Shown: piece after piece, positions 1,769-17,512 of the stretch | Position numbering within the stretch: position 1 is the first letter of the stretch | Layout: each line of letters starts with the position of its first letter | Assembly (NCBI GenBank): GCA_944326515.1 | Contig: CALVEI010000013.1 | Location: forward strand, 1-42,803 | DNA from: Candidatus Gastranaerophilales bacterium | Lineage (GTDB): Bacteria; Cyanobacteriota; Vampirovibrionia; Gastranaerophilales; Gastranaerophilaceae | Length of the DNA: 42,803 nt | Direction of reading: 5' to 3' | Translations under genes and position numbers: made by a program | Notes under the pieces: generated by a model | The model's input: only the letters and a program-made list of their open reading frames with translations | Told to the model about the DNA's origin: nothing | The model's database searches: none

Positions 1769-1774
1769 ACAATA

Positions 1775-1804
1775 ATTATATAATGATTGACACAAGAGGC
1801 GCAA
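1775..1804 (-). promoter_or_regulatory. Promoter of the solute-binding gene, probably leaderless
   Basis: On the minus strand TTGCGC (1804-1799) is followed by an 18-base spacer and TATAAT (1780-1775). Six bases separate the -10 from ATG 1768, which puts the expected transcription start on the A of the start codon. The -35 is weak; the -10 is perfect. Confidence 0.5.
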
Positions 1805-1839
1805 ATCCTTAACATGTATAAGGTGAGGAGTAATAATAA

Positions 1840-3288
1840 ATGACCAAATTAATATTTGAAAAATCTATAAAAGGAATGAATGGAATAACTCTTACAGACG
1901 AAGAATTAAACACAGACTTTCTTCCTCAAGAGTTTTTAAGAAAAGAATCCCCTGAGCTTCCTGAAGTCAGTGAACTTGAAGCAATGAGACACTTTAAAGA
2001 GCTTTCTGACAAAAACTTTTGTGTAGAGTCAGGGTTTTACCCTTTAGGTTCCTGTACAATGAAGTACAACCCGAAAGTAAACGAGTATTTAGCTTCTTTA
2101 GAAGGTTTTACAAGCCTTCATCCGTTGCAAAATGACGAAGATGCTCAAGGCGCACTTGAACTAATGTATAAATTGCAAGAAGCACTAAAAAAAGTTACAG
2201 GAATGGATGCAATAACGCTGCAAGGTTCAGCAGGTGCTCATGGAGAACTTTGTGGGATGATGATTGTAAAACACTATTTTAAAGTGAATAATCAACCACA
2301 AAGAACCAAAGTTATTATTCCAGATTCTGCACACGGAACAAACCCAGCTTCTGCAGGTATGTGCGGATTTGATATTGTAAAAGTGGACAGTAACAAAAAG
2401 GGACAAGTTGACGTTGACCATCTCAAAAAACTTTACGAAGAGCATAAAGACGAAATAGCAGCAATAATGATGACAAACCCGAACACTTTGGGATTGTTTG
2501 AAGAAAATATATCAGAAATCTCTAAAATCGCACACGCCAACGGATCTTTACTCTACTATGACGGAGCAAACTTTAACGCAATTATGGGGATAACAACCCC
2601 AAAACAAATGGGATTTGATATAGTTCACCTTAACTTGCACAAAACATTTTCAACCCCTCACGGAGGCGGAGGCCCAGGATCTGGCCCTGTTGGTGTTGTT
2701 GAAAGCCTGAAAGAATTTTTACCTGTACCAGTTATTGATTTTGATGGTGAAAAATACATAAGAAAATATAACCTTAAAAATACAATAGGGAAAATAAAAG
2801 AGTTTCAAGGCAATTTTGGAGTTTTAGTTAAGGCATACGCATACATTCTTATGAAAGGCGACAAACTAAAACAAGCATCACAAGATGCCGTTTTAAATGC
2901 AAACTATCTTAAAGAAAAACTTAAAGAATACTACGAATTGCCTTATGACTACACTTGTATGCACGAATTTGTTTTATCAGGTGACAAACAAAAGGCAAAT
3001 GGCGTTCACACTCTCGAAATAGCAAAAAGATTAATGGATTACAAATTCCATCCACCAACGGTTTATTTCCCTCTTATTGTATCTGAAGCAATGATGATTG
3101 AACCTACAGAAACAGAAAATAAAGCCCGTTTGGATGAATTCATTGACGTTATGAAAAACATAGCGGAAGAAGTAAAAAACACCCCGCAAAACGTACTTTC
3201 GGCACCTCATTGCACTCCTGTAAAAAGAGTTGATGAAACAAATGCCGCAAGACATTTGGATTTGAGATACAAAAAGGATTCAATGTAA
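1840..3288 (+). CDS. gcvPB: Glycine dehydrogenase (decarboxylating) subunit 2, P-protein beta-type
   Basis: 482 residues, the normal length for the PLP-binding subunit of the two-chain P-protein. With GcvPA it decarboxylates glycine and passes the aminomethyl group to lipoylated GcvH. Visible signatures are YPLGSCTMKYNPK (67-79), QGSAGAHGE near 128-136, and NLHKTFSTPHGGGGPGSGP, in which K268 is the PLP Schiff-base lysine. A good Shine-Dalgarno (AGGTGAGGAG) lies nine bases before the ATG. The gene begins a plus-strand run with the unknown protein at 3290, one base apart. The expected partner gcvPA is not upstream, where a divergent transporter gene sits, so gcvPA and gcvT/H must be elsewhere. 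The call is secure. Confidence 0.97.
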   Translation: MTKLIFEKSIKGMNGITLTDEELNTDFLPQEFLRKESPELPEVSELEAMRHFKELSDKNFCVESGFYPLGSCTMKYNPKVNEYLASLEGFTSLHPLQNDEDAQGALELMYKLQEALKKVTGMDAITLQGSAGAHGELCGMMIVKHYFKVNNQPQRTKVIIPDSAHGTNPASAGMCGFDIVKVDSNKKGQVDVDHLKKLYEEHKDEIAAIMMTNPNTLGLFEENISEISKIAHANGSLLYYDGANFNAIMGITTPKQMGFDIVHLNLHKTFSTPHGGGGPGSGPVGVVESLKEFLPVPVIDFDGEKYIRKYNLKNTIGKIKEFQGNFGVLVKAYAYILMKGDKLKQASQDAVLNANYLKEKLKEYYELPYDYTCMHEFVLSGDKQKANGVHTLEIAKRLMDYKFHPPTVYFPLIVSEAMMIEPTETENKARLDEFIDVMKNIAEEVKNTPQNVLSAPHCTPVKRVDETNAARHLDLRYKKDSM

Positions 3289-3289
3289 G

Positions 3290-3988
3290 ATGCACGAATA
3301 TTACTTTAAAATAAGAAAAGGCGATATTGAATTTGAATTTTCGACAAACGACAAATTCACATTTGAACAACAGCTTTCTGATTGGATTAATGGAGTTGTT
3401 AGAGGTGACTATGTTGCCCCGCCCATAAAAAAAGAAGAAGAAGAAATTAATGACAACCAAACACATGCAAATGTAGAAGATAAGCCTTTTCTTCCTGAAG
3501 AACAACCTCAACAACAAGAAAACGCACCTCAAAGAAGTGGTTTTCTAGAAGTGAAAGCTCTCACATCCATAAATGATATGACTGCCCCAACTTTTGATTT
3601 TAGCGACACAAAAGAAAATTTCCCAACCGAAGTAAATTTTGAGCAAACTTTAGCAGACTCAATAGAAAACCCTAAAACAGAAGTTGTTGAAAAAAAAGAA
3701 ATCACATCAGATTTTCAAGAATATTTAAACTCATATAATCCTCAAAATAACATAGATAAACTCATAGTTACAGGATTATACACTCTTAATGTTGAAAATA
3801 AAGAGCGCTTTACAATCAAACAACTAAATTCAAAACTTGTACCAACAATCGGCGTACCGATAGATCACGGAACAATAGATGAAGCAATCAAACAAAATCT
3901 TGTAAAAATAGTGCCTGATTTAACAGGAACAAATGAATTTACAGAATACACTCTTACAGAAAACGGCGAAAACTACTTTATTAATTAA
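3290..3988 (+). CDS. Unknown protein, acidic linker plus winged-helix-like C-terminus
   Basis: 232 residues, not recognised. The first 45 residues look like a small folded unit rich in beta strand (HEYYFKIRKGDIEFEF). Residues 45-150 are low-complexity, rich in Glu, Gln, Asn and Pro, and likely disordered. The last 75 residues look folded, with alternating helices and strands (LIVTGLYTLNVENKERFTIK, then GTIDEAIKQNLVKIVPD, then a beta-hairpin ending TENGENYF). This order is reminiscent of a winged helix, but no DNA-binding signature is clear. The ATG starts one base after the gcvPB stop, so translation is likely coupled. A bidirectional terminator follows at 4000-4039. The ORF is convincing; a role in glycine metabolism would be guesswork. 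Confidence 0.75.
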   Translation: MHEYYFKIRKGDIEFEFSTNDKFTFEQQLSDWINGVVRGDYVAPPIKKEEEEINDNQTHANVEDKPFLPEEQPQQQENAPQRSGFLEVKALTSINDMTAPTFDFSDTKENFPTEVNFEQTLADSIENPKTEVVEKKEITSDFQEYLNSYNPQNNIDKLIVTGLYTLNVENKERFTIKQLNSKLVPTIGVPIDHGTIDEAIKQNLVKIVPDLTGTNEFTEYTLTENGENYFIN

Positions 3989-3999
3989 GTGAAATACAC

Positions 4000-4039
4000 A
4001 AAAAAAAAGAGGCGACCTTTAACGGTTGCCTCTTTTTTT
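4000..4039. terminator. Bidirectional intrinsic terminator
   Basis: Nine-base-pair stem (4009-4017 with 4024-4032, one G-T wobble) and a six-base loop, with an A-run before and a T-run after. It sits between the convergent genes ending at 3988 and 4051 and can serve both strands. Confidence 0.88.
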
Positions 4040-4050
4040 ATAACTAAAAC

Positions 4051-4494
4051 TTACTTCAACGGGACTGACTTAGCGGCAGCCTTTGAGCCTTCTCCATCCA
4101 AAGTGAATGTATGATCAACAAACTGAGCTCTGTCTAAGTATTTTTGTTCAATCTTACCTGTATTATATGAACGGACAAGCAAGCTCAAACCAATCAACGC
4201 ACCAGCTGCAATTTTTACAGGTTTTGGTGCTGCACTAATATATTTTGCAATCTTTGTAAGAATACCCTTGCCCTCTAACTGCGCCGCTAACTCAGGTGCT
4301 TTTTTAACAGCAGAATTAAAAGCCGCCTTACCTGCTAAAGCTGTAGCACCGGCAACTACTCCAATTTGTACGTTAGAAGTCATACCATTTTTGAAATGTT
4401 GAAACGCACAATCGATCTTATTACCTGATGTACCTTTTCTTTTATCTACAAAAGAGTTTAAAGTAGGTGATACCAAAAATAAAACTTTAGACAT
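4051..4494 (-). CDS. Unknown small Ala-rich membrane-associated protein
   Basis: 147 residues, not recognised. The centre is Ala/Gly-rich with two candidate membrane helices: about 44-58 (IGVVAGATALAGKAA) and 94-110 (VKIAAGALIGLSLLVRS). The N-terminus and the C-terminal 35 residues are polar and basic. There is no signal peptide. Start ATG 4494 has AAGGA six bases upstream. It is transcribed towards the terminator at 4000-4039. The style, a short polar N-terminus followed by small-residue-rich helices, resembles the protein at 20723, though I cannot align them convincingly. Function unknown. Confidence 0.7.
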   Translation of the reverse strand: MSKVLFLVSPTLNSFVDKRKGTSGNKIDCAFQHFKNGMTSNVQIGVVAGATALAGKAAFNSAVKKAPELAAQLEGKGILTKIAKYISAAPKPVKIAAGALIGLSLLVRSYNTGKIEQKYLDRAQFVDHTFTLDGEGSKAAAKSVPLK

Positions 4495-4593
4495 AACACT
4501 TCCTTATCTTTCACACAATTCCTTATACATTAGAAAAAACAACGAAACGTAAATATTTGATAAATTAACATCCATTTTTTACAATTGTTAATA

Positions 4594-5043
4594 TTATATA
4601 GAATACTTAGAAATATCTTCAAAATATTTTTCTAAAGCAATATAACCGTTGTAAATTTCATTTGTAATAAGTGTATATCTGCAAGCTGCAAGATATTTAA
4701 GCTCCTTCAATCTTATATCTATTATATTATCCGCATCTGCCTTAAGTGCAGGATCCAAAGAAGATGACCATTTTTTTAACAATTCAAGCTCTTCATTGAT
4801 TTGTTTTACGGTAGTATATTCAAGTTGATTAAAATCGTATTTACCCAATAAAGCTTTATCTTTGTTTGTAATTCTACTTTTAACAACAGGTGTTCCATAG
4901 ATTTTTTTTACAAACATATAATTATCAGCCGCAACAATATGAGAAATAGGCACACCAGCCTTTGAAAGTAACGAAGAAGCACTAAGATTGCTTTTGTCAT
5001 TTATATCGGCAAAAGTATTAATTTGTGTCATAGGACTTGTCAT
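4594..5043 (-). CDS. Unknown soluble helical protein
   Basis: 149 residues from ATG 5043, chosen because AAAGGGGA lies just upstream. The frame stays open to ATG 5157 and TTG 5166, but that 41-residue extension is very polar (Ser, Asn, Lys) and has no obvious ribosome-binding site. The protein is mostly predicted helix, with a Leu/Glu/Lys-rich segment around 75-115 (INEELELLKKWSSSLD, then IIDIRLKELKYLAACRYT). No membrane segment or catalytic motif is seen. It is divergent from the gene at 5311. Function unknown; neighbours at 4051, 5311 and 5877 are equally unplaced. Confidence 0.65.
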   Translation of the reverse strand: MTSPMTQINTFADINDKSNLSASSLLSKAGVPISHIVAADNYMFVKKIYGTPVVKSRITNKDKALLGKYDFNQLEYTTVKQINEELELLKKWSSSLDPALKADADNIIDIRLKELKYLAACRYTLITNEIYNGYIALEKYFEDISKYSI

Positions 5044-5310
5044 ATTTTCCCCTTTACGATTCGGATTAGAATTTATTTTTGATTTAGAACAGGGGCTTTC
5101 CTTTTTCTCCGAACCCGAATTATCAGAAATCTTATCGTTAATAGCCCTGATCCTCATTAATCTCAACTATATATAAATATTATCGCACGCTTATAATTTT
5201 GTCATGCTACTTTGTAGAATTGTAAAGGACAAATTTCAAAACAGGCAATAATTTTAAAACAATTGACTTTTATATAATAAGGGAATGTTTTAACTAAGGA
5301 AAATATTTTT

Positions 5311-5781
5311 ATGGTTCGAGGATATTCAGAAAAAAACTTTTCTGGCGATGTATCACAAAACCCAATTGTGTTAAGTCTGCAAAAAAATCAAGAAAAAATA
5401 ATGTCAGAATTAAACAAAAGTTTTAAAGATATGCAAAAATATTCTATCTATAGAGCAAAGGTGCTAAAAACTGATAGAACAGAAACTGCACAAAAGCAAT
5501 TTAATGAAATAGCATACCTAAACCTCTGGCAAACAAACGATATAAATACAATAATCAACGGTCAAGATAAACTTAGAAAATTTATCCAATATACGACTTA
5601 CGGAAAATTTGACTACTCATTTGATGATCAACTCTTCGCTTGTCAAAAATTATTGAGAAAAAATGAAGAGAAACTGGAATTACTAAAAAAAGGAGAAAAG
5701 ACAAACAACAGCAAATCTTTTCAGATTTTTGACACAAACAGAGATAATAATACTGGTTCTATATATATAGAAAATGTTTAA
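5311..5781 (+). CDS. Unknown helical/coiled-coil protein
   Basis: 156 residues, not recognised. The protein is soluble, rich in Lys, Gln and Asn, and mostly helical: residues 19-60 look like an amphipathic helix (LQKNQEKIMSELNKSFKDMQ), and 105-130 (LLRKNEEKLELLKKGEK) form a second charged helix. It has no membrane segment, signal peptide or cysteine cluster. ATG 5311 follows TAAGGA at a long spacing of about eleven bases. A perfect 8-bp inverted repeat begins two bases after the stop codon. It lies in a run of proteins without recognisable family. The next gene (5877) encodes a similar short coiled-coil protein in the same direction, so the two may act together; this is inference. Confidence 0.7.
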   Translation: MVRGYSEKNFSGDVSQNPIVLSLQKNQEKIMSELNKSFKDMQKYSIYRAKVLKTDRTETAQKQFNEIAYLNLWQTNDINTIINGQDKLRKFIQYTTYGKFDYSFDDQLFACQKLLRKNEEKLELLKKGEKTNNSKSFQIFDTNRDNNTGSIYIENV

Positions 5782-5783
5782 GC

Positions 5784-5803
5784 TTGTAAATATTTATTTA
5801 CAA
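5784..5803. repeat. Perfect 8-bp inverted repeat, 4-base loop
   Basis: TTGTAAAT, loop ATTT, ATTTACAA, starting two bases after the stop codon at 5781 and about 75 bases before the next start. It has no G-C-rich stem and no T-run, so it is a poor terminator. It could be an operator or a weak RNA hairpin. Confidence 0.5.
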
Positions 5804-5876
5804 AGAATCAATTTTCAACCTAAAAAATACTTTATATATTTAGGGAAGATTATAACTAAATTTGGGGAATAGGATT

Positions 5877-6380
5877 ATGGGACTAAAAGCAATGTCTTCT
5901 GATCCGATACTGCAAAAGCAAATGCAGGCGTATTATACAACAACGCAGCTGTCACGCGGTATGACGGAGTCAATAGAAGATTACAACAAAAGAATACAAC
6001 AGTATAGAGAAGAATTAGCTGAAAAAATAAAAGAAGAAAACACAAAAATTCTTCAAAACAAATTGCTGGGTATAGACCCAACAATCAACGCTAATATGCA
6101 AAATTTAAAAAATGCTAATTCTCAAATAGACTCTTTAAAGTTCTGGCAGTTTGCACTTGACAGATATGATACATCTTTAGACGGACAAATAGCTAAACTC
6201 AAAAATCAACAGGCGTTAATTCAACAGAAAATAGCAGAACTCCAAAAAGGTCAAGGACAAGATGAAAAGCTCAACCTTTGGGAACAAAATGCATTCGATT
6301 TTCCTTCTGCAGAAAAGAAAGCAGCAGGAATGTTTGACAACGACACAATGGCAACAGGCAAAAGAAACATTTTAAGCTAA
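5877..6380 (+). CDS. Unknown coiled-coil protein
   Basis: 167 residues from ATG 5877, preceded by GGGGAATAGGATT, a clear ribosome-binding region; a TTG at 5862 in the same frame lies inside that region and is unlikely. Residues 30-62 (EDYNKRIQQYREELAEKIKE) and 72-124 form two long heptad-like helices joined by a short LGIDPT turn, as in a helical hairpin. The C-terminal 40 residues are probably disordered. No enzymatic motif, membrane segment or signal is present. Its stop codon directly abuts the rimO stop on the other strand, with no bases between them. A structural or scaffolding part is the most natural reading, but the function is unknown. Confidence 0.75.
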   Translation: MGLKAMSSDPILQKQMQAYYTTTQLSRGMTESIEDYNKRIQQYREELAEKIKEENTKILQNKLLGIDPTINANMQNLKNANSQIDSLKFWQFALDRYDTSLDGQIAKLKNQQALIQQKIAELQKGQGQDEKLNLWEQNAFDFPSAEKKAAGMFDNDTMATGKRNILS

Positions 6381-7697
6381 CTATAAATTGCCATACAAAT
6401 CGTATTCATCGCAACCAGTGATTTTAACAGATTCTATATCACCCGGGACTGGGATATCGTCTGTTTCTATATAGACAAGCCCGTCCACCTCGGGTGCATC
6501 TCTGTATGAACGTGCAATAACTGCACCATCACTGCCTACTGACTCTATAATACAAGGAATTTCTCTTCCCAAAAAGCTCTTGTTCACCTCTAAAGAAATC
6601 TTTTGTTGAAGTTTCATAAGCTTATTCTTTCGCTGTTTTTTTATTCTTGCTGGAACCTGTTCAGGTAGAGAATAAGCGTATGTACCTTTTTCTTTCGAAA
6701 ATTCAAAAGCGCCCATTTTGTCAAATTTAGCCCATTTAGTAAACTCGTACAAATGTTCAAACATTTCTTGAGTTTCTCCAGGATAACCAACAATAAAAGT
6801 TGTTCTTATTGCAACGCCTTTGATTTTATCTCTCAATTTGGAAATGAAATCTTTATAATCCATCACCGGACGACGCATAGCTTTTAGCATTTCAGGATGA
6901 GAATGTTGAAGAGGAATATCAACATATTTTACAACTTTATCGCAATTTGCATAAGCTTCTATTAATTCATCATCAAACATTGACGGATACGTATACATTA
7001 CACGTATCCAGTTTATTTCTTCAACCTTATTCAATTCTTTTAACAGCTTGGCTAAAGACGGTTTCTTATACAAATCAACACCATATGCTGTTGTATCTTG
7101 TGCAATTAAAACAATTTCCGAAACACCTTTTTTGCCAAGTTCTTTTGCTTCCTCAACAATATTTTCAATCGTTCTTGAACGATATGGCCCTCTTAATTTT
7201 GGAATAATACAGTAACCGCACTGATAATTACATCCTTCCGCTATTTTCAAGTAAGAACTAGAACCAACAGTAATTTGCTGTCTTTGAACATTTTCCGGAT
7301 ATTCGTAAATCGGTTTTTCTGAAATTTTACAAAAATAATCATCTTGCTGAGCAACCGACTTAACAGCATCCACAATAGCAGAAATATCAGAGGTTCCAAG
7401 CATTGCAAGAGCCTCAGGAACTGCTTTTTTTAATTCTTTTTTATGTTTTTGAGGCAAACATCCTGTAATAATAATTTTCTTACCTTTGTTCACCATTTCG
7501 ATTATTGATTGAACTGATTCCTGCTCCGCATCGTGGATAAAAGAACAAGTATTAATAATAACTATATCAGCTTCATCATCATTCAGCGTAATGCTAAAAC
7601 CTTCTTGAGACAACATACCAAGCATAAGCTCAGAATCAACAAGATTTTTCGCACAGCCGTGATTTATTAACGCAATTTTATTTTTCAATTTAGCCAT
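6381..7697 (-). CDS. rimO: Ribosomal protein S12 methylthiotransferase RimO
   Basis: 438 residues, full length. It is a radical-SAM enzyme that methylthiolates an Asp of ribosomal protein S12. The N-terminal UPF0004 domain carries the first iron-sulfur cluster at C15 (HGCAKN), C51 (NTCSFI) and C80 (TGCLPQ). The radical-SAM cluster is C156-x3-C160-x2-C163, followed by PKLRGPYRSR. A TRAM domain occupies roughly the last 65 residues. NTCSFI and the SAM-motif context favour RimO over the tRNA enzyme MiaB. No Shine-Dalgarno is visible; a TAGAAT lies six bases before ATG 7697, so the transcript may be leaderless. Confidence 0.96.
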   Translation of the reverse strand: MAKLKNKIALINHGCAKNLVDSELMLGMLSQEGFSITLNDDEADIVIINTCSFIHDAEQESVQSIIEMVNKGKKIIITGCLPQKHKKELKKAVPEALAMLGTSDISAIVDAVKSVAQQDDYFCKISEKPIYEYPENVQRQQITVGSSSYLKIAEGCNYQCGYCIIPKLRGPYRSRTIENIVEEAKELGKKGVSEIVLIAQDTTAYGVDLYKKPSLAKLLKELNKVEEINWIRVMYTYPSMFDDELIEAYANCDKVVKYVDIPLQHSHPEMLKAMRRPVMDYKDFISKLRDKIKGVAIRTTFIVGYPGETQEMFEHLYEFTKWAKFDKMGAFEFSKEKGTYAYSLPEQVPARIKKQRKNKLMKLQQKISLEVNKSFLGREIPCIIESVGSDGAVIARSYRDAPEVDGLVYIETDDIPVPGDIESVKITGCDEYDLYGNL

Positions 7698-7738: not shown

Positions 7739-9289
7739 TCAACTTTTAGACTTATTACTTTTGCCATATAAAAGAAGCAGGGGCAAACACACCAAAGTAA
7801 TAAGCCCCCAAACCCTAAAGGTTTCTATATAAGCTGAGAGTGTTGATTGTTGTATAAGCTGGTTATAGAGCATCCCCTGTGCTTTAGCCTGAGCAACAGA
7901 AAATACATCATACTGACACAAATAAGATGTTAAAGCAGAGAGTCTTTCCATATAAACATTATTTTGAGTATTTAAATATTCAACAAGATTGTGCTGAAAA
8001 GCTTGTGAATACCTTGAAACCATTGTTGCAACAAGCGATGTTCCTATAGCTGCACCGAGGTTTTTTATCAAGTTTTGCACACCGCTTGCATTCGTCATTT
8101 GAGCATTACTTATTGTATCCATTGATACTGTTGTTAAAACAGTTATGGTCAAACCAACAGAAAAGCCAAAAATCACATTTGGAACAATAATATTTATCAT
8201 TGAAAACTCAAGGTTCAAAAAACCGAACATTAAACTCGACACAGCCAAGCAAACTATGCCGACCAAAGCAAATATTCGAAAATCAAACATTTTATTGGTA
8301 AGGCTGTATAAAGTAATAGCAGCTACAGACCCAAACCCTCTAGGCATAAGAGAATAACCACTCCAAAAAGCATTGTATCCCATCAAATTTTGTAAAAACA
8401 AAGGCATTATAGTAGTCGAAGCATACAACACCATATTTGCAATAACCAAAATTATTGTCCCCAAAACAAAGTTTTTGTCTTTAAAAACAGACAAATCAAT
8501 AATAGAATCTTTTTGAACTATCTGAGAATAAATGAACAAAACCATTGCAATCATTGATATTGCAAAGGTCCAACATATCCACTCAGACCCAAACCAATCT
8601 GCATTATTTCCCTTATCTAAAAACACTTGAAAAGTAACAAGCCAAACAATCAAAAACAAAAAACCTATGTAATCAATCTTTGCATCGGCTTGTTTTTGAG
8701 CATAAGGAGGGTCAAAAATCCACAATTTAGAAGTTATTGCCGCTAGAATACCAAACGGAATGTTTATAAAAAATATCCAATTCCAAGACCAATTATCAGT
8801 AAGCCAACCGCCCAAAATAGGCCCTATTACAGGAGCAACAACTACGCCAAATCCAAAAATAGACATAGCTAGTGCTCTTTTTTCAAGAGGAAATGCCTCT
8901 AACAAAATAGCTTGAGAAACAGGTAACAAAGCGCCACCACCAAGCCCCTGCAGAATTCTTGAAAAAATCATCATATCTAATGATGTGGACATACCGCATA
9001 GTAAAGAAGCAAAAGTAAATAACAATATGCAAGCAATAAAAAACTGTTTTCTTCCAAAAAATTTAGAAAACCAATCAACAGATGGTACAACAATACCACT
9101 TGCAATCAAATAACTTGTTAAAATCCAAGTTGCTTCATCATTACTGGAAGAAAAACTCCCAGCCATCTGCGGTAAAGCTACGTTTGCTATTGTGCCGTCA
9201 AGTACAAATATAAACGTTGCTGTCATAACAGCAATAGTTGTTAGCCAAGGATTTATTGTTTTTACAGTATTATTATCAGTCATTTTCAT
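7739..9289 (-). CDS. DHA2-family MFS drug exporter (EmrB/QacA type)
   Basis: 516 residues with about 14 membrane helices, the size and layout of proton-driven DHA2 multidrug exporters. Helix 1 holds the family signature FVLDGTIANVALP, followed by SFSSSNDEATWILTSYLI, the GRKQFF loop, and motif C-like GFGVVVAPVIGPILGGWL in helix 5. It closely resembles the EmrB at 12089-13687 in the same window, including the C-terminal YNQLIQQSTLSAY segment, so the two are paralogs. Unlike that copy it has no adaptor (EmrA) gene beside it. It is the second gene behind the MarR regulator at 9292-9756, with two bases between them, and is therefore probably induced when that repressor binds its ligand. Substrate unknown. 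Confidence 0.93.
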   Translation of the reverse strand: MKMTDNNTVKTINPWLTTIAVMTATFIFVLDGTIANVALPQMAGSFSSSNDEATWILTSYLIASGIVVPSVDWFSKFFGRKQFFIACILLFTFASLLCGMSTSLDMMIFSRILQGLGGGALLPVSQAILLEAFPLEKRALAMSIFGFGVVVAPVIGPILGGWLTDNWSWNWIFFINIPFGILAAITSKLWIFDPPYAQKQADAKIDYIGFLFLIVWLVTFQVFLDKGNNADWFGSEWICWTFAISMIAMVLFIYSQIVQKDSIIDLSVFKDKNFVLGTIILVIANMVLYASTTIMPLFLQNLMGYNAFWSGYSLMPRGFGSVAAITLYSLTNKMFDFRIFALVGIVCLAVSSLMFGFLNLEFSMINIIVPNVIFGFSVGLTITVLTTVSMDTISNAQMTNASGVQNLIKNLGAAIGTSLVATMVSRYSQAFQHNLVEYLNTQNNVYMERLSALTSYLCQYDVFSVAQAKAQGMLYNQLIQQSTLSAYIETFRVWGLITLVCLPLLLLYGKSNKSKS

Positions 9290-9291
9290 TT

Positions 9292-9756
9292 TTAAATCTG
9301 TATATTTTCTTTTTCACTAATTTTAGAAATTATTTTGTTTAATGTATTCACAAATTGTTCCAAGTCATTAGCACTAAAAGATGACGTAAAGTCTTTCAAA
9401 TCCCCTTTCAAAACAGGAGAAAGTTCATCTACAACTTTTTGTCCTTTTTCCGTAATTTTAATCATTTTTACAGGACGCTTTGATTTAGTAGTTGATATTC
9501 TTTTTATGAGTGATTTTTTTTCAAGAATAGAAACTATTCTTGTAACATTAGATCTGTCTTTCAATAGTATTTTGGCTAAATCTCGCTGACAAATATCACT
9601 ACTTAAAGCAATAGCATCAAGAGCTATAAACTGATCAATTGTCAAATCAGCCCCCAAGCGATGTAACACAGAAGAACCGTGTAACCTAAAGTACACAGAA
9701 GCTTTATCCACAAGATACGGCAAACACTCCGCATAACGTTCCGAAAAACCATCCAT
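9292..9756 (-). CDS. MarR-family transcriptional regulator
   Basis: 154 residues, usual for MarR dimers. The winged helix spans about 45-115: a recognition helix with ICQRDLAKILLKDRSNVTRI, a wing around STTKSKRPVKMIKITEKGQ, and flanking dimerisation helices. It is the first gene of an operon with the DHA2 exporter. The start ATG 9756 lies three bases after a tandem repeat of a 14-bp dyad that overlaps the expected transcription start and includes the GGAG Shine-Dalgarno. Autorepression relieved by a pump substrate is the standard behaviour of this arrangement and is inferred here. Confidence 0.93.
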   Translation of the reverse strand: MDGFSERYAECLPYLVDKASVYFRLHGSSVLHRLGADLTIDQFIALDAIALSSDICQRDLAKILLKDRSNVTRIVSILEKKSLIKRISTTKSKRPVKMIKITEKGQKVVDELSPVLKGDLKDFTSSFSANDLEQFVNTLNKIISKISEKENIQI

Positions 9757-9759
9757 TGT

Positions 9760-9789
9760 GTTGTAACTCCAACATGTTGTAATTCCAAC
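9760..9789. promoter_or_regulatory. Tandem MarR operator, two 14-bp dyads
   Basis: Two copies of GTTG-N6-CAAC, at 9760-9773 and 9776-9789, differ at one position and repeat with a 16-base period. They lie between the -10 and the start codon of the MarR gene. Read on the minus strand, the proximal copy contains GGAG ten bases before the ATG, so one site would cover both operator and ribosome-binding site. Confidence 0.75.
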
Positions 9790-9792
9790 ACA

Positions 9793-10190: not shown

Positions 10191-11324
10191 ATGCATAACA
10201 AAATATTAGATAAATTAACAATATTAGACAGATATATCCTCTTACAAGTCTTGGAAATATTCATAATGGGGATTGTAATATTTACGTCTATTATTTTTGC
10301 GTCAGATACATTCATTACTCTTATTAAACAGATTACGTTATATGGTATCCCGTTTAATATTGCAATGATGATAGTTTTGTTAAACCTGCCTCAAGTATTT
10401 GTAATGGCAATACCTATGAGTGTTTTGTTTTCAACTGTAATGACGTTGAACAGATTGAGTCTTTCTTCAGAAATTACAGTTATGAGAGCTTGCGGTATCG
10501 GTTTAAACCGTATTGCAAAACCAATATTTATTTTTGCTGCAGCAATGACGCTTTTAACTTTTATAATTAACGAAACAATTGTTCCGATAACAAATTCTCA
10601 ATCAAAAACTCTTGCAGTTTGGGCATTAGGTCAAAAAAATATTCCAAACGGAAAACAAAATTTTACCTTTAAAGAAATTAAAACTGATGAAAACGGATAT
10701 AAATCAATGAAACGACTTTTCTTTGTCCAAAGATGTGAAGATAACACACTAAAGAACGTTTCTGTTGTTGATTTTTCAAATCCTAAAACAATACAAGTTA
10801 TTCAATCACAAACAGGTAAAACAAGCCCTGAAGGCTGGCAGTTTAATAGAGGTGCAGCCTACACAATGGATAAAGATCAAAAAGTGTTAAACACAACTTG
10901 GTTTGATCAGTCTGTTGTGGATTTTGGTATGGATGTTAAAGACGCACTAACAGAAGATGAAGCAACACAATATAACGTAATTGCTTTGTGGAAATATGTT
11001 GAACACAACGCAAAAAAACATGACGAAAAAATGCAATCTTTGTTTAAGATAGAACTTCACAACAAATTTGCATTCCCTTTTACTACAATTGTTCTTGTTT
11101 TACTTGGTGTTCCTTTGGCAATTACCCCACCACGTGTTAGATACAACAGAGGTTTCTTGTTCAGTATCTTGATTATATTCTTATACTACCTTTTAAGAGC
11201 ATTATCTCTGTCTTTTGGTGAAAATATGGCAGTGTCACCATTCTTGGCCGCTTGGATTCCAAACTTTGTATTGATAATACTCGGATCTATTCTTTATTAC
11301 AGAAAAGTTTATACAATCACTTAA
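10191..11324 (+). CDS. LptF/LptG-family permease (YjgP/YjgQ)
   Basis: 377 residues, standard length. It is the inner-membrane part of the LptB2FG transporter that extracts lipopolysaccharide and hands it to the LptC/A bridge. There are three N-terminal membrane helices (about 17-38, 50-85, 103-128), a periplasmic beta-rich domain (about 135-265) and three C-terminal helices (about 285-375). The conserved early segment LDRYILLQVLEIFIMGI and the cytoplasmic coupling loop MTLNRLSLSSEITVMRACGIG are clear. It cannot be assigned to F or G alone; many non-proteobacteria have one gene here. Its stop overlaps the stop of the convergent thioesterase gene by four bases (TTAA). Confidence 0.9.
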   Translation: MHNKILDKLTILDRYILLQVLEIFIMGIVIFTSIIFASDTFITLIKQITLYGIPFNIAMMIVLLNLPQVFVMAIPMSVLFSTVMTLNRLSLSSEITVMRACGIGLNRIAKPIFIFAAAMTLLTFIINETIVPITNSQSKTLAVWALGQKNIPNGKQNFTFKEIKTDENGYKSMKRLFFVQRCEDNTLKNVSVVDFSNPKTIQVIQSQTGKTSPEGWQFNRGAAYTMDKDQKVLNTTWFDQSVVDFGMDVKDALTEDEATQYNVIALWKYVEHNAKKHDEKMQSLFKIELHNKFAFPFTTIVLVLLGVPLAITPPRVRYNRGFLFSILIIFLYYLLRALSLSFGENMAVSPFLAAWIPNFVLIILGSILYYRKVYTIT

Positions 11325-12073
11325 ACCTTATTCCACTGTATTTTTAAAGACGCAAGCTCTTCACCGCTAATATTGTCATTTATACAGTGCAAAGTATAAA
11401 CACTGCCATTTTCTGTAATCTTTTGAACGACAGAAACAACTTTCGCATCAAATGATATTTCTTTTTTGTATTTAATATCAATAACTTTGGGCAAGTATGA
11501 CATTCTAAAATCAACAGGCAAAACTTCTAACGCCCAAGTAATGTATTTGCTATTATTTACGTGTTTATTTACATCAATATCATCAAAACTTACATCAAAT
11601 TCCTTTTGATAATTAACTTCACTTAAAGATTCAATTTTACCATATTCTAAATCACCTAAACGTGGCTCAAAATTTTTAATAAACCCCAAAGTTTTTTGCA
11701 TTGGCAAAATCTTTCTTGTAATTATATCAATCAATGCCCAAGCAGAAATGACTTTTCCCAACAACTCATTTTGAGACGAATAAAGTTCAAAATCGCGAAA
11801 AGCATACAACTTAGTTGTTCCTCGAGATTCTGTCTTTATAATTAGCTTATTCAAATTTTTCAAATCTTTATACAATTCAATGTGGTACTTTAAAACAACC
11901 CAAGCATAATTTTTCGGAAAAATATAACTTGGTCCAAAGCCCAAAGATTCTGCACTGATTGTTGCTATATCTTGCAACAAATTTAATAAGCTGGACTCTT
12001 TTAATTGAGAATTAAGATTTTGCTCGTAATATTTAATTTCATATTCTTTAACAAGAACATTATCAAGAACCAT
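11321..12073 (-). CDS. Acyl-ACP thioesterase (FatA/FatB family)
   Basis: 250 residues in two hotdog domains, the usual bacterial length. It hydrolyses acyl-ACP to release free fatty acid. The second domain carries DIDVNKHVNN, with D167, N169 and H171 matching the Asp-x-Asn-x-His catalytic set of plant FatB enzymes. The first domain has LLNLLQDIATISAESLG and VLKYHIELYKD as in PF01643. It is the last gene of the MarR-EmrA-EmrB operon: 15 bases after emrB, with AAGGA nine bases before its ATG. This placement, not its sequence, suggests that the released fatty acid is what the pump exports or that the enzyme feeds the inducer. Chain-length preference cannot be read by eye. Confidence 0.93.
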   Translation of the reverse strand: MVLDNVLVKEYEIKYYEQNLNSQLKESSLLNLLQDIATISAESLGFGPSYIFPKNYAWVVLKYHIELYKDLKNLNKLIIKTESRGTTKLYAFRDFELYSSQNELLGKVISAWALIDIITRKILPMQKTLGFIKNFEPRLGDLEYGKIESLSEVNYQKEFDVSFDDIDVNKHVNNSKYITWALEVLPVDFRMSYLPKVIDIKYKKEISFDAKVVSVVQKITENGSVYTLHCINDNISGEELASLKIQWNKV

Positions 12074-12088
12074 AGGACAAATTCCTTT

Positions 12089-13687
12089 TTATTTTGCAGG
12101 CAGAGGAGCTTCTACTTTTGCGCTTTTCTGCTTTTTATATTTTACCTTTTGGAACAAGAAGATTAAAGGAGTAAGCACAATCAGCATAATTGCAAAAATT
12201 TTAAAACAATCCATATATGCTAACAATGTAGATTGTTGAATCAACTGTTTATATGCCATAGTATTAGCTTTAATATCAGATAAAGCCTGACCTGACATCA
12301 TTGCAATACCAGCCTGCATAGCATTGACCTTTTCCACAAAACCTGAATGAGAATATGTAAGATTTCTTATAAGATGTGTTTGGTGAACCTGACTCATACG
12401 AGAAACCATTGTACTTACGGCAGAAGTACCTATTGCACCCCCAACACTTTTGGCGAGGTTAAAAACACCTGTTGCATTTGTCATTTGATTATTTTTAAGA
12501 GTAACAAAAGCAATAGTCATAAGAGGTATCATTACCAACGAAAAAGCAGCACCGCAAACAATATTAGGGATAATAATATTCGACATGGAAATTTGCAAAT
12601 TCAATGTACCAAACATTATATTAGAAAGTGCTAAAACCAACATTCCAACGGTAATAACCCACCTTTGATCTACCCTATTTGCAAGAATTGCACAAATAAC
12701 AAGCCCTGTTAGAGACCCAAAACCGCGAGGGCTGATTGCCAAACCGCTTAAAGTTGCGGTATATCCCATTAACTGTTGCAAAAACAAAGGCAAAATAGCC
12801 AACGTAGAATACAAAACAGCACCAATAACAAAGTGCAGAACCGTACCTATTGCAAAGTTTTTATCTTTAAATACTTTTAAATCAACTATAGGTTCTTTTA
12901 TGACAAGTTCTCTGACAACAAAGGCTATAAAAGTCACAGCAACAACCGCTGCAGACCATCTTACCCAGCTGGAGCCAAACCAATCTGATTTTTGACCGTT
13001 ATCAAGTATTATTTGCAAAACAAACAGCCATATTATTAAAAATATAAATCCCCAATAATCGACTGATTTAACCTTACCTTTTCTTGCGTATGGTGGATCT
13101 TCAATAAACTTTTTGATAAGCCATAAAGATACAAAACCTATTGGCACATTGATAAGAAATATCCAATGCCAAGAATAAGTATCTGTAATCCAACCACCTA
13201 AAGTAGGGCCGATAATCGGAGCAAATATTACCCCAAAGCCAAAAACAGACATTGCAACGCCACGTTCTTCAGGAGGAAACTCTTCCATCATAACAGCCTG
13301 AGAAATTGGCATAATAGCACCGCCACCGACACCTTGAATAACACGTGCAATAATAAGCATTGTCATACTCGTTGCCATACCACAAAGAGCAGATGCTATT
13401 GTAAATAAAAAAGTTGATAATAACAAAAAGTTTTTACGACCCATCAAAGTTGAAAACCAAGCAGTTGACGGGATAATAACACCGTTAGCAACAAGGTAAC
13501 TTGTTAAAACCCAAGTTGATTCGTCCCTTGTTGCAGAAAAAGATCCGGCAATATGAGGCAAAGCTACGTTAGCAATAGAAGAATCCAACACAACCATGAA
13601 GATTGTAAGCATTACTGCGCCGGCACTAAGCCAAGGATTTTTACCTGATCTTTCTTCTTCAGTTGTTATTATTGCTTCGTTACTCAT
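12089..13687 (-). CDS. emrB: EmrB-type DHA2 multidrug exporter
   Basis: 532 residues with about 14 membrane helices. Residues 28-45 give MVVLDSSIANVALPHIAG, the DHA2 motif D1 region; RVIQGVGGGAIMPISQA and GFGVIFAPIIGPTLGGW follow. The start ATG overlaps the last base of the emrA stop (TAATG), giving coupled synthesis of pump and adaptor. With EmrA upstream and a divergent TolC-like gene, it forms a complete tripartite efflux set spanning the envelope. The same family includes FarB, a fatty-acid exporter, which is relevant because a thioesterase follows. Close paralog of the exporter at 7739-9289. Confidence 0.94.
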   Translation of the reverse strand: MSNEAIITTEEERSGKNPWLSAGAVMLTIFMVVLDSSIANVALPHIAGSFSATRDESTWVLTSYLVANGVIIPSTAWFSTLMGRKNFLLLSTFLFTIASALCGMATSMTMLIIARVIQGVGGGAIMPISQAVMMEEFPPEERGVAMSVFGFGVIFAPIIGPTLGGWITDTYSWHWIFLINVPIGFVSLWLIKKFIEDPPYARKGKVKSVDYWGFIFLIIWLFVLQIILDNGQKSDWFGSSWVRWSAAVVAVTFIAFVVRELVIKEPIVDLKVFKDKNFAIGTVLHFVIGAVLYSTLAILPLFLQQLMGYTATLSGLAISPRGFGSLTGLVICAILANRVDQRWVITVGMLVLALSNIMFGTLNLQISMSNIIIPNIVCGAAFSLVMIPLMTIAFVTLKNNQMTNATGVFNLAKSVGGAIGTSAVSTMVSRMSQVHQTHLIRNLTYSHSGFVEKVNAMQAGIAMMSGQALSDIKANTMAYKQLIQQSTLLAYMDCFKIFAIMLIVLTPLIFLFQKVKYKKQKSAKVEAPLPAK

Positions 13688-14712
13688 TATTTAACCAATA
13701 CTTTTGGAACAACACTCATGCCAGGTTCAATACTGTATTGAGGATCTAACGGCTGAGTAAATATAATTTTTACAGGAACTCTTTGTACTACTTTTACGTA
13801 GCTACCAACAGCATTTTCCGGAGGAAACATACTTGTTTTAGCTCCTGTACTTGATTGTATTGAGTCAACCTTACCTACAAGTTTCAGATGAGGATATGCA
13901 TCAACTTTGATTTTTACTTTTTGACCTACTCTGATTTTATTCAACTGAGTTTCTTTAAAGTTAGCAACTACCCATCTTTTGTCTGGAACAATAGAGAATA
14001 AAGGAGCTCCTGCATTAATAAAAGCACCTTCTTCAGCAGAACGATTTGTTATTTTTCCATCATCTGAAGCATATATTTTTGTATAAGACAACTCAAGCTG
14101 AGCTTGTTTCATTGCTGCTTCGAGTCTTCTTAACTCCGCGTCAGCAACTTTGTTTTTTTCTTTAGAAAAAACAGCTTGTTGAGCAGCCGCATAATTAGCT
14201 TTTGCTAAATCAAATTTTGATTTTGCTTTGTCATATTCCTGTTGAGAAACAGCACCTTTTTCAAAAAGATTTTTATATCTGTCATAATCTTGTTGAGCAA
14301 CTTTTAAATCAGTTTCTGCTGCATTTTTATCAACAACTGCAGATTTTTGTTTATACAAAGCCATTTCGTAAGCAGCTTTAGCTTGATCATAACGAACTTT
14401 GTAGTCTCTATCATCAATTTGCAAAAGCAAATCACCTTTTTTAACATGTTGGTTATCATCTATATATAGTTTTTCTATGATACCTGTGACTTTAGGACTT
14501 ATTCTAACAATATGACCTTCTACAAAAGCGTCATCAGTAGTTTCAAATGTTGAAAAATATAACCAACCCAACAAACACAAAACTACAATTATTATAGAAG
14601 GAATCAAAAATCTCTTTTTCACAACCTTTTTTGTTTTTTTCTTTCTGGATGGTTTCTCTGTTGAGTCAGAAGCTGACGCCATAACTTCATCTTTATTATT
14701 GTTCTCTTCCAT
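13687..14712 (-). CDS. emrA: EmrA/HlyD-type periplasmic adaptor
   Basis: 341 residues. Layout: basic cytoplasmic tail 1-34, one membrane helix 35-54, then TTDDAFVEGHIVRISPKVTG, the EmrA signature opening the barrel-sandwich (lipoyl-like) domain. Next come a long coiled-coil hairpin of about 100-200 rich in Ala, Lys and Gln, the second lipoyl half (SYTKIYASDDGKI) and a beta-barrel domain with VGQKVKIKVDAYP. It links the inner-membrane EmrB to an outer-membrane TolC-like channel. It lies between the MarR gene and emrB with an 11-base gap on the MarR side. A Shine-Dalgarno-like AAGGCGG precedes ATG 14712. Confidence 0.94.
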   Translation of the reverse strand: MEENNNKDEVMASASDSTEKPSRKKKTKKVVKKRFLIPSIIIVVLCLLGWLYFSTFETTDDAFVEGHIVRISPKVTGIIEKLYIDDNQHVKKGDLLLQIDDRDYKVRYDQAKAAYEMALYKQKSAVVDKNAAETDLKVAQQDYDRYKNLFEKGAVSQQEYDKAKSKFDLAKANYAAAQQAVFSKEKNKVADAELRRLEAAMKQAQLELSYTKIYASDDGKITNRSAEEGAFINAGAPLFSIVPDKRWVVANFKETQLNKIRVGQKVKIKVDAYPHLKLVGKVDSIQSSTGAKTSMFPPENAVGSYVKVVQRVPVKIIFTQPLDPQYSIEPGMSVVPKVLVK

Positions 14713-14723
14713 TTTTTACCGCC

Positions 14724-15185
14724 TTATTCATTTATTTTATATTCTTCTTCAATATTTTTTCTTACTTTTCTCAAAAGAGTTACAAGAGTAAGAATTTCTT
14801 CATCTGTCATCCCTTTATATTGAGCAGCATTCATCCTATCTTTTAAAGGTTTCGCTATTTTGACTTTTTCTAGTCCTTTTTCGGTTAAATATACTTTTAA
14901 TATTCTTCTGTTATTCTCGTCTTTTTCTCTTCTGATAAATTGGTTAGTTTCTAATATATCAATCATTCTCGTTATATTAGGACGGTCCTTTCCTAATATA
15001 TTGGCTATTTGGGTTTGATACAATCCATCCGTTAGCGACAAAAGGAGTAATATACCAAACTGCTCTCTAGTGATATCATCCACTCCATGAAGTTTTAACG
15101 TTTTTTGACTTGCAGCTCTATAAACAGAAGATGTTAAAGCCATCTCCAACCCTAAATCTATATCTACATTGTTTATTCTTTTCAA
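14724..15185 (-). CDS. MarR-family regulator of the Emr operon
   Basis: 153 residues starting at TTG 15185, behind AGGG/GAGA purine-rich sequence; a later ATG at 15143 would remove 14 residues and has less upstream support. The winged helix includes REQFGILLLLSLTDGLYQTQ, the recognition helix region LGKDRPNITRMIDILE, and a wing with RREKDENNRRILKVYLTEKG. Clearly related to but distinct from the MarR protein at 9292-9756. It heads the emrA-emrB-thioesterase operon and is divergent from the TolC-like gene. Two TTA-N6-TAA dyads lie in the shared intergenic region, so one protein could control both directions. The control is inferred. Confidence 0.9.
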   Translation of the reverse strand: MKRINNVDIDLGLEMALTSSVYRAASQKTLKLHGVDDITREQFGILLLLSLTDGLYQTQIANILGKDRPNITRMIDILETNQFIRREKDENNRRILKVYLTEKGLEKVKIAKPLKDRMNAAQYKGMTDEEILTLVTLLRKVRKNIEEEYKINE

Positions 15186-15203
15186 ATCTCTACCCTATCC
15201 AAA

Positions 15204-15234
15204 TGTTAGTATGATAACAATTACTATGCTAACA
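15204..15234. promoter_or_regulatory. Paired MarR-type operators between emr operon and TolC-like gene
   Basis: TGTTA-N6-TAACA at 15204-15219 is a perfect dyad. A second, less perfect copy (ATTA-N6-TAACA) lies at 15220-15234, centred 15 bases further on. They lie 19 bases from the MarR start codon and 45 from the TolC-like start, within the only non-coding stretch of the locus. Confidence 0.65.
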
Positions 15235-15278
15235 TGCGCAACTAAAAAAAACAACAAAAAAAAACGAAAGAGGCGTAT

Positions 15279-16640
15279 ATGTACGCTAAAAATTTTATAA
15301 GTGCAATATTTATTTTTATATTTTTATCTTCCCCAATACTAGCACAAACTATTGATTCAAAAGTAGTTTATAGAGCGTGTAATATCAATATAGAGTGGTG
15401 GGATAATTTTTCCGATCCTTATTTAAAAAAATATATTTATTTAACAATGGAAAAAAACCACGAGCTAAAAAAAATTTCTTACATCACAGAACAATACAGA
15501 CAAACTATAAAAACAACAATGTCTAAAGAATTCCCAAGCCTAATGTTTGCGCCAACATTCGCTAGAGTAAAAACAGCTCAAAATCAAATTTTTGACATAG
15601 ACACAGCAACAATAAGAACCAATAACTACGCATTACCACTAATTGCAAAATATGAAGCAGACATATTTTTAAAAAATCATGACAAAACAAAATCATCAAA
15701 AAAAGAATTTGATTCTTACAAATACAAAGAAAAAGCGGCAGATATTTCACTCGCTTCTGACGTTGCAACTATATATATAAATATACTCAAGCTCGATAAA
15801 GTTATAAAAACACAAGAAAAAGTAAATAACATAAGAGAAAAAATACTTGAACTAACAAAAGAAAGATATAAAGAAGGGCTTGCATCGCTTTACGACGTAA
15901 CATACACAGATAAAATGCATACACAATCACAAATAGAAATCAACGACCTAAAAAGACAAAGAAGCTTGCTATTACATCAACTTGCTGTTTATATTGATGA
16001 TTGCCCGTCAAACTCAGAAAATTTAGAGAGAGGAAGCTTTGAAAATCTTGAATTCAAAGGACAAATTCCTCAACAAATAACCTCAAATATAGTTTTTACT
16101 CGTCCTGACATAATGAAAGCAGAATCTGACCTTGAAAAAGCAAAGATAGATATTAAAATTGCACGTAAAGAATTTTTGCCAACAATCCCCATTCTTGGTA
16201 TAGCAGGATACAACGCATTACTATTAAAAGACCTGTTCAACTGGGAGAATATCTTTGGTTTGGTTGGAGTATCAACTATGCAAAAAATCTTCACAGGAGG
16301 AATGTTAAGTGCCAATCTCAAGACAAAAAAACTAAAATACCAAGAGTTATTTGAAGCTTATAAGCAAGCAGATTTAACAGCTATTCAAGAAATTAATGAC
16401 GCCCTGTGTTTAATTAAATACGATTCACAAAAAGACAGAGCAAATTTAAAAAAGCTTAATCTTGAAACTGCAAACTACAAACTCATTCAAGAACGTTATA
16501 AATCAGGAATCGAATCTTTTTTAAGCCTTATTCAATATGAAGAAAACCTTTTAAGTATTCAAAAAGAAAAAGATAATTCTAAAGCTCAAAGACTCATAGA
16601 CTACATAACCCTGTATAAATCAACAGGAGCAAAACTATAA
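15279..16640 (+). CDS. TolC/OprM-type outer-membrane efflux channel
   Basis: 453 residues, typical for outer-membrane efflux proteins. Residues 1-22 form a Sec signal peptide (hydrophobic FISAIFIFIFLSSPILAQ, cleavage after Ala-Gln region). The mature part shows the repeated helical and strand pattern: WWDNFSDPYLKKYI near the N-terminus as in NodT-type channels, long helices, then FTRPDIMKAESDLEKAKIDI and a repeat of the helix LIQERYKSGIESFLSLIQ late in the protein, mirroring LTKERYKEGLASLYDV earlier. No lipid-anchor cysteine is seen. Shine-Dalgarno AAAGAGG lies five bases from the ATG. Divergent from the MarR-EmrA-EmrB operon across a shared operator, it is the natural outer channel of that pump. 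Confidence 0.92.
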   Translation: MYAKNFISAIFIFIFLSSPILAQTIDSKVVYRACNINIEWWDNFSDPYLKKYIYLTMEKNHELKKISYITEQYRQTIKTTMSKEFPSLMFAPTFARVKTAQNQIFDIDTATIRTNNYALPLIAKYEADIFLKNHDKTKSSKKEFDSYKYKEKAADISLASDVATIYINILKLDKVIKTQEKVNNIREKILELTKERYKEGLASLYDVTYTDKMHTQSQIEINDLKRQRSLLLHQLAVYIDDCPSNSENLERGSFENLEFKGQIPQQITSNIVFTRPDIMKAESDLEKAKIDIKIARKEFLPTIPILGIAGYNALLLKDLFNWENIFGLVGVSTMQKIFTGGMLSANLKTKKLKYQELFEAYKQADLTAIQEINDALCLIKYDSQKDRANLKKLNLETANYKLIQERYKSGIESFLSLIQYEENLLSIQKEKDNSKAQRLIDYITLYKSTGAKL

Positions 16641-16705: not shown

Positions 16706-17512
16706 ATGAAATCAGTAAAAGAAGTTGTTACAGAATCTAAGATTATTGAACGACTCAAAAATAATAATCAATGTCTTAAACTTGTAAAATATCTGTTTGA
16801 AGACGAAGAATTGCAAGAACTGCAAGAATACGCAAATAACGTTTCAATAAAAAGATTAGGATATAACGACCACGGCCCTGTTCACATGCGACAAGTTGTC
16901 GGCAATGCAATAAAAATGCTCAATATTTTAAGAGACTCAGGTATTAAAACATCTCTTGAAAAAGAAGAAATAGGAACATTTGAAGACAGTATGTCAGCTG
17001 TTATTCTTGCAGGGATGATGCACGATTTAGGTATGGCAATAGGCAGACAAGGTCACGAAGAAATGTCTGTTATACTTGCTCAACCAATAATAGACAGAAC
17101 ATTATTACATCTGTTTCCAAACAACTTGCACAAAAGAGTTGTTATAAAATCAGTTGCAACAGAAGCTATTATCGGGCATATGTCTTCTCGAAAAATCCAT
17201 TCTACAGAAGCGGGCATTCTTCTAATTGCAGACGGATGTGATATGACAAAGGGCAGAGCAAGAATTCCTCTTGCAATAAACAACACACCTAAAGTCGGTG
17301 ATATTCACAAGTATTCGGCAAATGCAATAAACAGAATAGGTATCCACCACGGAGAAAAGAAACCAATAAAAATTGACATAGAAATGTCAGGAGACGTAGG
17401 TTTCTTCCAAATCGAAGAAGTTTTGCTAACTAAAATTGACTCAAGCCCCGCAAAAGAGTACGTTGAGTTATACGCAGGTGTTGCAGGACAAGAAAGAAAA
17501 TGTTACCTATAA
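16706..17512 (+). CDS. HD-domain metal-dependent phosphohydrolase
   Basis: 268 residues. The HD metal site is visible: H56 and H60 in NDHGPVHMRQ, the doublet H106-D107 in MMHDLGMA, H117 in GHEEM, H158 in IGHMSS, and D176/D179 in LIADGCDMTKGRARIP. These are good metal and phosphate ligands for a nucleotidase or phosphodiesterase. The C-terminal 75 residues form a separate mixed domain. It lacks a GYP motif, so it is not a c-di-GMP phosphodiesterase of the HD-GYP class. It stands as a single transcription unit with its own promoter and a Shine-Dalgarno, facing dprA with six bases between the stops. The substrate is not predictable. Confidence 0.88.
   Translation: MKSVKEVVTESKIIERLKNNNQCLKLVKYLFEDEELQELQEYANNVSIKRLGYNDHGPVHMRQVVGNAIKMLNILRDSGIKTSLEKEEIGTFEDSMSAVILAGMMHDLGMAIGRQGHEEMSVILAQPIIDRTLLHLFPNNLHKRVVIKSVATEAIIGHMSSRKIHSTEAGILLIADGCDMTKGRARIPLAINNTPKVGDIHKYSANAINRIGIHHGEKKPIKIDIEMSGDVGFFQIEEVLLTKIDSSPAKEYVELYAGVAGQERKCYL

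Follow-up and report, generated by a model that had tools for sequence, protein, structure and literature searches.

The DNA analysed here (the window, 42,803 nucleotides in full) is contig C13 of a 2.2 Mb assembly in 119 contigs, and close relatives of the source genome are metagenome-assembled Candidatus Gastranaerophilales. The group consists of gut-dwelling, non-photosynthetic cyanobacterial relatives. The genus of the source genome is represented in our collection by 23 species, 20 of which possess a thioesterase of the kind discussed below. The features of the locus are as follows:

10191–11324, plus strand: LptF/LptG permease (PF03739), convergent with the thioesterase gene, 4-bp overlap
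11321–12073, minus strand: acyl-ACP thioesterase (TE), 250 aa, final gene of the predicted operon (PF01643 and PF20791)
12074–12088, minus strand: EmrB–TE gap, 15 nt, terminator-free
12089–13687, minus strand: EmrB-like DHA2-family MFS pump, 532 aa (TIGR00711)
13687–14712, minus strand: EmrA-like periplasmic adaptor, 341 aa (HlyD domains)
14724–15185, minus strand: MarR-family regulator, 153 aa, TTG start as listed (PF01047)
15203–15235, no strand assigned: tandem palindromic putative operator, ATGTTAGTATGATAACAATTACTATGCTAACAT, 33 bp, conserved between species
15279–16640, plus strand: outer-membrane efflux channel of the NodT/TolC type, 453 aa, divergent (PF02321, TIGR01845)

The MarR, EmrA, EmrB and TE genes run head-to-tail in that order, all on the minus strand. 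The initial annotation described them as tightly packed, and the open reading frame coordinates confirm this: 11 nt separate MarR from EmrA, EmrA and EmrB overlap by 1 nt, and 15 nt lie between EmrB and TE, with an AAGGAG just 5' of the TE ATG. The LptF/LptG permease is the boundary and lies outside the unit; among the genus loci it adjoins the TE only in the window genome and its close relative G006. Only these two genomes, among the genus loci read, carry a second EmrB-like MFS gene (7739–9289) with its own MarR (9292–9756) next to the main unit (window 7739–9756), with a palindrome, TGTTGTAATTCCAACA, at 9775–9790. On the opposite side, a 268-aa protein encoded next to the channel (window 16706–17512) matched nothing in Pfam or NCBIfam at E 0.001.

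Profile matches identify EmrB, the channel, the MarR domain and the two-domain TE securely. EmrA is less certain, because its best subfamily model scores below its cut-off (TIGR00998, the best NCBIfam match, 217.5 against 390.8; the HlyD Pfam domains are above cut-off). EmrB scores 434.7 bits with TIGR00711 (cut-off 230.2), which places it among the DHA2/EmrB-family permeases, and its nearest solved structures are those of EmrB (8zal/8zar). For the regulator, PF01047 (55.0 bits, cut-off 24.6) conveys general MarR membership only; no NCBIfam model for a MarR subfamily reaches its cut-off, and the EmrR/MprA equivalog NF008122 scores 40.2 against 157. The channel was rightly called TolC-like and divergent at the outset: it matches PF02321 and TIGR01845/NodT (215.6, cut-off 210.05), both above cut-off, and gives the pump an outer-membrane partner.

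In the TE, both hot-dog domains are present, the N-terminal and the C-terminal (PF01643, 92.5 bits, cut-off 23.7; PF20791, 85.8, cut-off 21), together with the D-x-N-x-H-x-N-N motif and a downstream glutamate. D167, N169 and H171 are invariant in 44 of 44 aligned sequences and E205 is found in 41 of the 44; on the model of FatB, we take these residues to be catalytic. Its relatives among PDB structures (2own, 4gak and 2ess) are bacterial acyl-ACP thioesterases, and the coding sequence is under purifying selection (pairwise dN/dS roughly 0.04–0.15). The enzyme is predicted to release free fatty acids; several characterised bacterial members of the same family release C4–C14 fatty acids in Escherichia coli (PMC3176148).

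Between the MarR and channel genes, TGTTAGTATGATAACA (15204–15219) and AATTACTATGCTAACA (15219–15234) together form a 33-bp tandem palindrome, so the two putative operators first proposed are real. The full form is matched in 22 of the 23 species, and the remaining one keeps at least one site. Because the palindrome is kept while the intergenic sequence around it varies between species, it is well supported as a regulator site that would serve both divergent promoters. Elsewhere in the window genome (locus L164, G000:C44, 5955–7398), three operator-like palindromes, 19 bp apart, lie 5' of an orphan gene for an outer-membrane efflux channel with 39% identity to that of the window; this channel is possibly under the window's MarR or a related one.

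Throughout the genus, MarR-EmrA-EmrB is found in every species (23/23), and the channel adjoins it in 22. The TE is less constant. It lies directly 3' of EmrB in 15 species (G000, G001, G002, G003, G004, G006, G007, G009, G011, G012, G014, G015, G016, G018 and G022) and elsewhere in five (G008, G010, G013, G017 and G019); the three species that lack it (G005, G020 and G021) retain the pump. The EmrB–TE gap measures about 9–29 nt in all 15 linked species, none of which has a hairpin-plus-T terminator signal in it. Nor is there a distinctive promoter between EmrB and TE: promoter-like matches in this region number 51 against 51.0 in shuffled sequence, and since this equals expectation we give them no weight. 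As an internal control, all genes up to six places downstream and eight places upstream of EmrB were clustered; any other flanking gene is common to at most 7 of the 23 species. The linkage of the TE is far above this local gene-shuffling background, yet below that of the pump core. It is preferred, not obligatory, as the pump stands without a TE next to it in eight of the 23 species.

Here, we must consider whether the pairing has any functional meaning. A housekeeping TE could have come to lie 3' of a general multidrug pump in the ancestor of the genus and persisted there through vertical descent, with pump substrate and TE product unrelated. The far greater shuffling of the other flanking genes speaks against this, whereas the broken linkages speak for it, as do the relocated TEs, which are likewise under purifying selection with the operator absent. 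A MarR operator was searched for at all five relocated loci and no site was found (0/5), which led us to reject the idea that the TE moved together with its own operator as part of a shared regulon; MarR control of the TE is dispensable in those species. The genes flanking the relocated TEs are of other types (TPR, CxxCxxCC, glycosyltransferase, SPOR, DUF366, phosphoesterase, AAA/FtsH-like and MutS2) and include no fatty-acid genes, so a placement amid fatty-acid-synthesis genes was also rejected.

Some further neighbours of the TE may be recorded. In three linked species (L081, L089 and L097) a gene for a protein of the 800-aa class follows it, and in L081 (6886–9300) an outer-membrane efflux domain lies at residues 346–531. 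A CxxCxxCC-type (PF03692) or CxxC-rich gene occurs near the TE, on either side in different species of the genus and also in another genus (L079, 12929–13336; L094, 10105–10512; L181–L183, L190 and L192).

Beyond the genus, a TE homologue is present in 201 of 383 genomes of the family. The flanks read at TE loci there were mostly 5–10 kb, shorter at contig ends, and at none of the 91 loci does the TE adjoin EmrAB-MarR. Linkage in other genera is therefore rejected, and the synteny check proposed with the initial annotation comes out divided, with the placement after EmrB recurring within the genus and failing outside it. The same pump core is found in other genera with no TE beside it; the nearest of these pumps, in G054 and G040 (~70% identity), also lack a TE next to them, and neither genome gave a TE match anywhere. 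As far as sampled, the TE-EmrAB-MarR arrangement is limited to one genus. The frequency of TEs away from pumps, and of the pump core without a TE, again favours an accidental pairing. In a single case from another genus (L202, G388, 1497–6817), a TE is divergent, across 108 bp, from an RND adaptor-pump-channel operon.

Phylogenies of EmrA+EmrB and of the TE recover matching main groups, and the TEs of the genus form one clade with 100/100 support, in which linked and relocated copies are vertical orthologues. With congruent trees and a single TE clade, the link is one that was inherited, not repeatedly acquired. All deep lineages of the genus show the linked state, and relocated TEs are confined to one subclade that also contains linked species. 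The simplest history is probably that TE and pump were joined once, in the ancestor of the genus, and separated several times afterwards, since agreement of the pump and TE trees points to a single origin with later erosion; the root of the genus is poorly resolved.

A second gene type recurs at these loci. In 7 of the 23 species (G003, G005, G012, G014, G018, G021 and G022), an AMP-forming acyl-CoA/ACP-synthetase-like gene (~570 aa) is found at most a few kb from the pump; in G005 and G021, both TE-less, it immediately follows EmrB. Relatives of this synthetase are found near the TE at 14 of 87 loci in other genera. At seven loci from five genera (L136, L214, L219, L220, L223, L229 and L231) the two are immediate neighbours at a distance of at most about 200 nt, with same-strand, convergent and divergent orientations. 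Such proximity is very unlikely by chance on a rough binomial estimate, with the caveat that related genomes are not independent. Each sampled synthetase gene has promoter-like sequence in the gap 5' of it, so we call it a neighbour and not an operon member; the best NCBIfam match of the candidate is below cut-off. This recurrence near pump and TE is new here and supports a link to fatty acids. It also weighs against an accidental pairing, as a second fatty-acid-type gene near the pump and, elsewhere, near the TE. Exclusive export of fatty acids is not supported.

The window genome itself encodes a candidate acyl synthetase, the orthologue being on a different contig (C22, 26768–28480). Within its incomplete assembly, thiolase-family matches are weak only and DegV/FakB gave no match. 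From this gene content, oxidation of free fatty acid in the organism looks unlikely, and any surplus would be recycled or exported. A 1170–1200-aa frame with a synthetase domain, 48–50% identical to the smaller synthetase, occurs as well in about 10 members of the genus (e.g., G002:C12, G013:C3, G011:C1 and G019:C15); it was not found in the window genome. Separately, L171 (G000:C34:13000-23323) holds a cluster resembling an aryl-polyene-type pathway, with a ketosynthase and an ApeP-like dehydratase, an acyltransferase, an AMP-ligase fused to an ApeI-like dehydratase, a YbgC-type thioesterase, a LolA-like protein, an HAE3/HpnN-like transporter and a methyltransferase-type domain.

The reading that we favour, and to which we give an even chance, is that the unit works as a MarR-controlled release-and-export valve, for overflow and detoxification of surplus acyl chains and not for dedicated secretion of one product. 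In the ancestor of this Gastranaerophilales genus, a MarR-repressed, EmrAB-type tripartite operon would have gained a cytoplasmic TE as its last gene. A MarR dimer on the tandem palindrome would repress both divergent promoters until an amphipathic inducer (fatty acids, bile salts or other gut lipophiles) frees MarR from the DNA. Pump, channel and TE would then be produced together, the TE would release free fatty acid by hydrolysing surplus acyl-ACP, and EmrA-EmrB and the outer-membrane channel would expel fatty acids along with other lipophiles. Fatty acid that is retained may be re-activated by the acyl synthetase, encoded nearby or elsewhere. What the sequences show is the identity and order of the genes, the conservation of operator, active site and linkage within the genus, the congruent inheritance and the recurring synthetase near both pump and TE; co-transcription, MarR binding, the inducer, the chain length of the substrate and export are the steps that we infer.

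Against this, the accidental pairing described above still deserves to be taken seriously, and we consider it doubtful rather than improbable because of the operator-free relocated TEs, the three TE losses and a FarR precedent that is weaker than first thought. Less credible is dedicated production and export, in which derepression would lead the TE to produce one specific fatty acid, medium-chain or modified, for secretion by EmrAB and its channel as a signal, antimicrobial or nutrient. It draws on the same evidence as the valve, namely a MarR-controlled enzyme with a tripartite pump in 15 of 23 species, and is opposed by the dissociation of TE and pump in the other eight, by the lack of any additional biosynthetic gene common to the loci and by the general-purpose character of the EmrAB-type family; we think it improbable. 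An equally low standing goes to a ligand-switched dedicated unit, in which one MarR would control the TE and a complete pump, and free fatty acid would be made and secreted into the gut on cue. Least likely by our estimate, and hard to credit, is that the TE adjusts the acyl-ACP pool feeding membrane or lipid A upon induction by lipophilic stress, its product not being exported: co-directional packing would place it under control of the pump operon, a glycosyltransferase is directly 3' of it in two relatives from one subclade and LptF/LptG is its convergent neighbour in the window, but these adjoining envelope genes are not conserved.

It was suggested at the outset that a thioesterase beside EmrAB means production plus export, or detoxification, of the same molecule. 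The linkage in 15 species, the tight terminator-free packing and the synthetase near the pump uphold the general association. The stronger version, a dedicated unit, is undercut by restriction to one genus, by pumps without an adjacent TE (8/23), by relocated TEs without an operator and by the absence of the arrangement from all 91 outside loci. If the favoured reading is true, fatty-acid synthesis would be tied directly to an efflux pump under a single switch. The physiological substrates of EmrAB-type pumps are poorly known, and the unit offers a natural substrate clue. It also gives a testable handle on the lipid physiology of gut Gastranaerophilales, with linked, relocated and lost-TE species as ready-made comparisons.

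Coupling of a thioesterase to a pump is otherwise an engineered feature of biofuel strains. The initial annotation knew of no described system with this exact gene set, and our survey of the open-licence literature agrees, as no paper on a thioesterase in a MarR-EmrAB operon was found. The closest relative in layout is EmrRAB-TolC of E. coli and Salmonella, likewise a MarR-family regulator, an adaptor and a DHA2 MFS pump in one operon. EmrAB gives resistance to fatty-acid salts in both hosts, and dodecanoate is an inducer of the Salmonella emrAB promoter (PMC9989013, PMC9045224). The unit here differs in adding an acyl-ACP thioesterase as its last gene, in having a dedicated channel that diverges across the same operator, and in that its EmrA and MarR score under the EmrA/MprA model cut-offs.

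FarAB/FarR of Neisseria, which the initial annotation offered as precedent, is by description also an EmrAB-type pump with a MarR-family repressor, with no thioesterase described there (PMC3568044, PMC2791445); no Far-specific model came up among the profile matches of the present genes. Fatty-acid resistance through gonococcal FarAB stands (PMC3568044). The precedent is nonetheless weaker than stated, because the meningococcal FarR homologue NadR showed no response to long-chain fatty acids (PMC2791445) and is reported as not involved in fatty-acid resistance (PMC3568044).

The TE itself shares its PF01643 + PF20791 two-domain build and its D-x-N-x-H-x-N-N motif with the bacterial thioesterases of ThYme family TE14 (2own, 4gak and 2ess); it differs in sitting within an efflux operon, a placement for which we found no report. 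In physiology, the nearest comparison comes from the same phylum. Synechocystis recycles as well as exports its free fatty acids (PMC6329066, PMC9509626), combining reactivation by the aas acyl-ACP synthetase with export through the Sll0180/Slr2131 pump (PMC6329066), a pairing that is likewise predicted here. The pump there is of the RND (AcrAB) type, whereas that of the present unit is of the MFS type with a co-directional TE.
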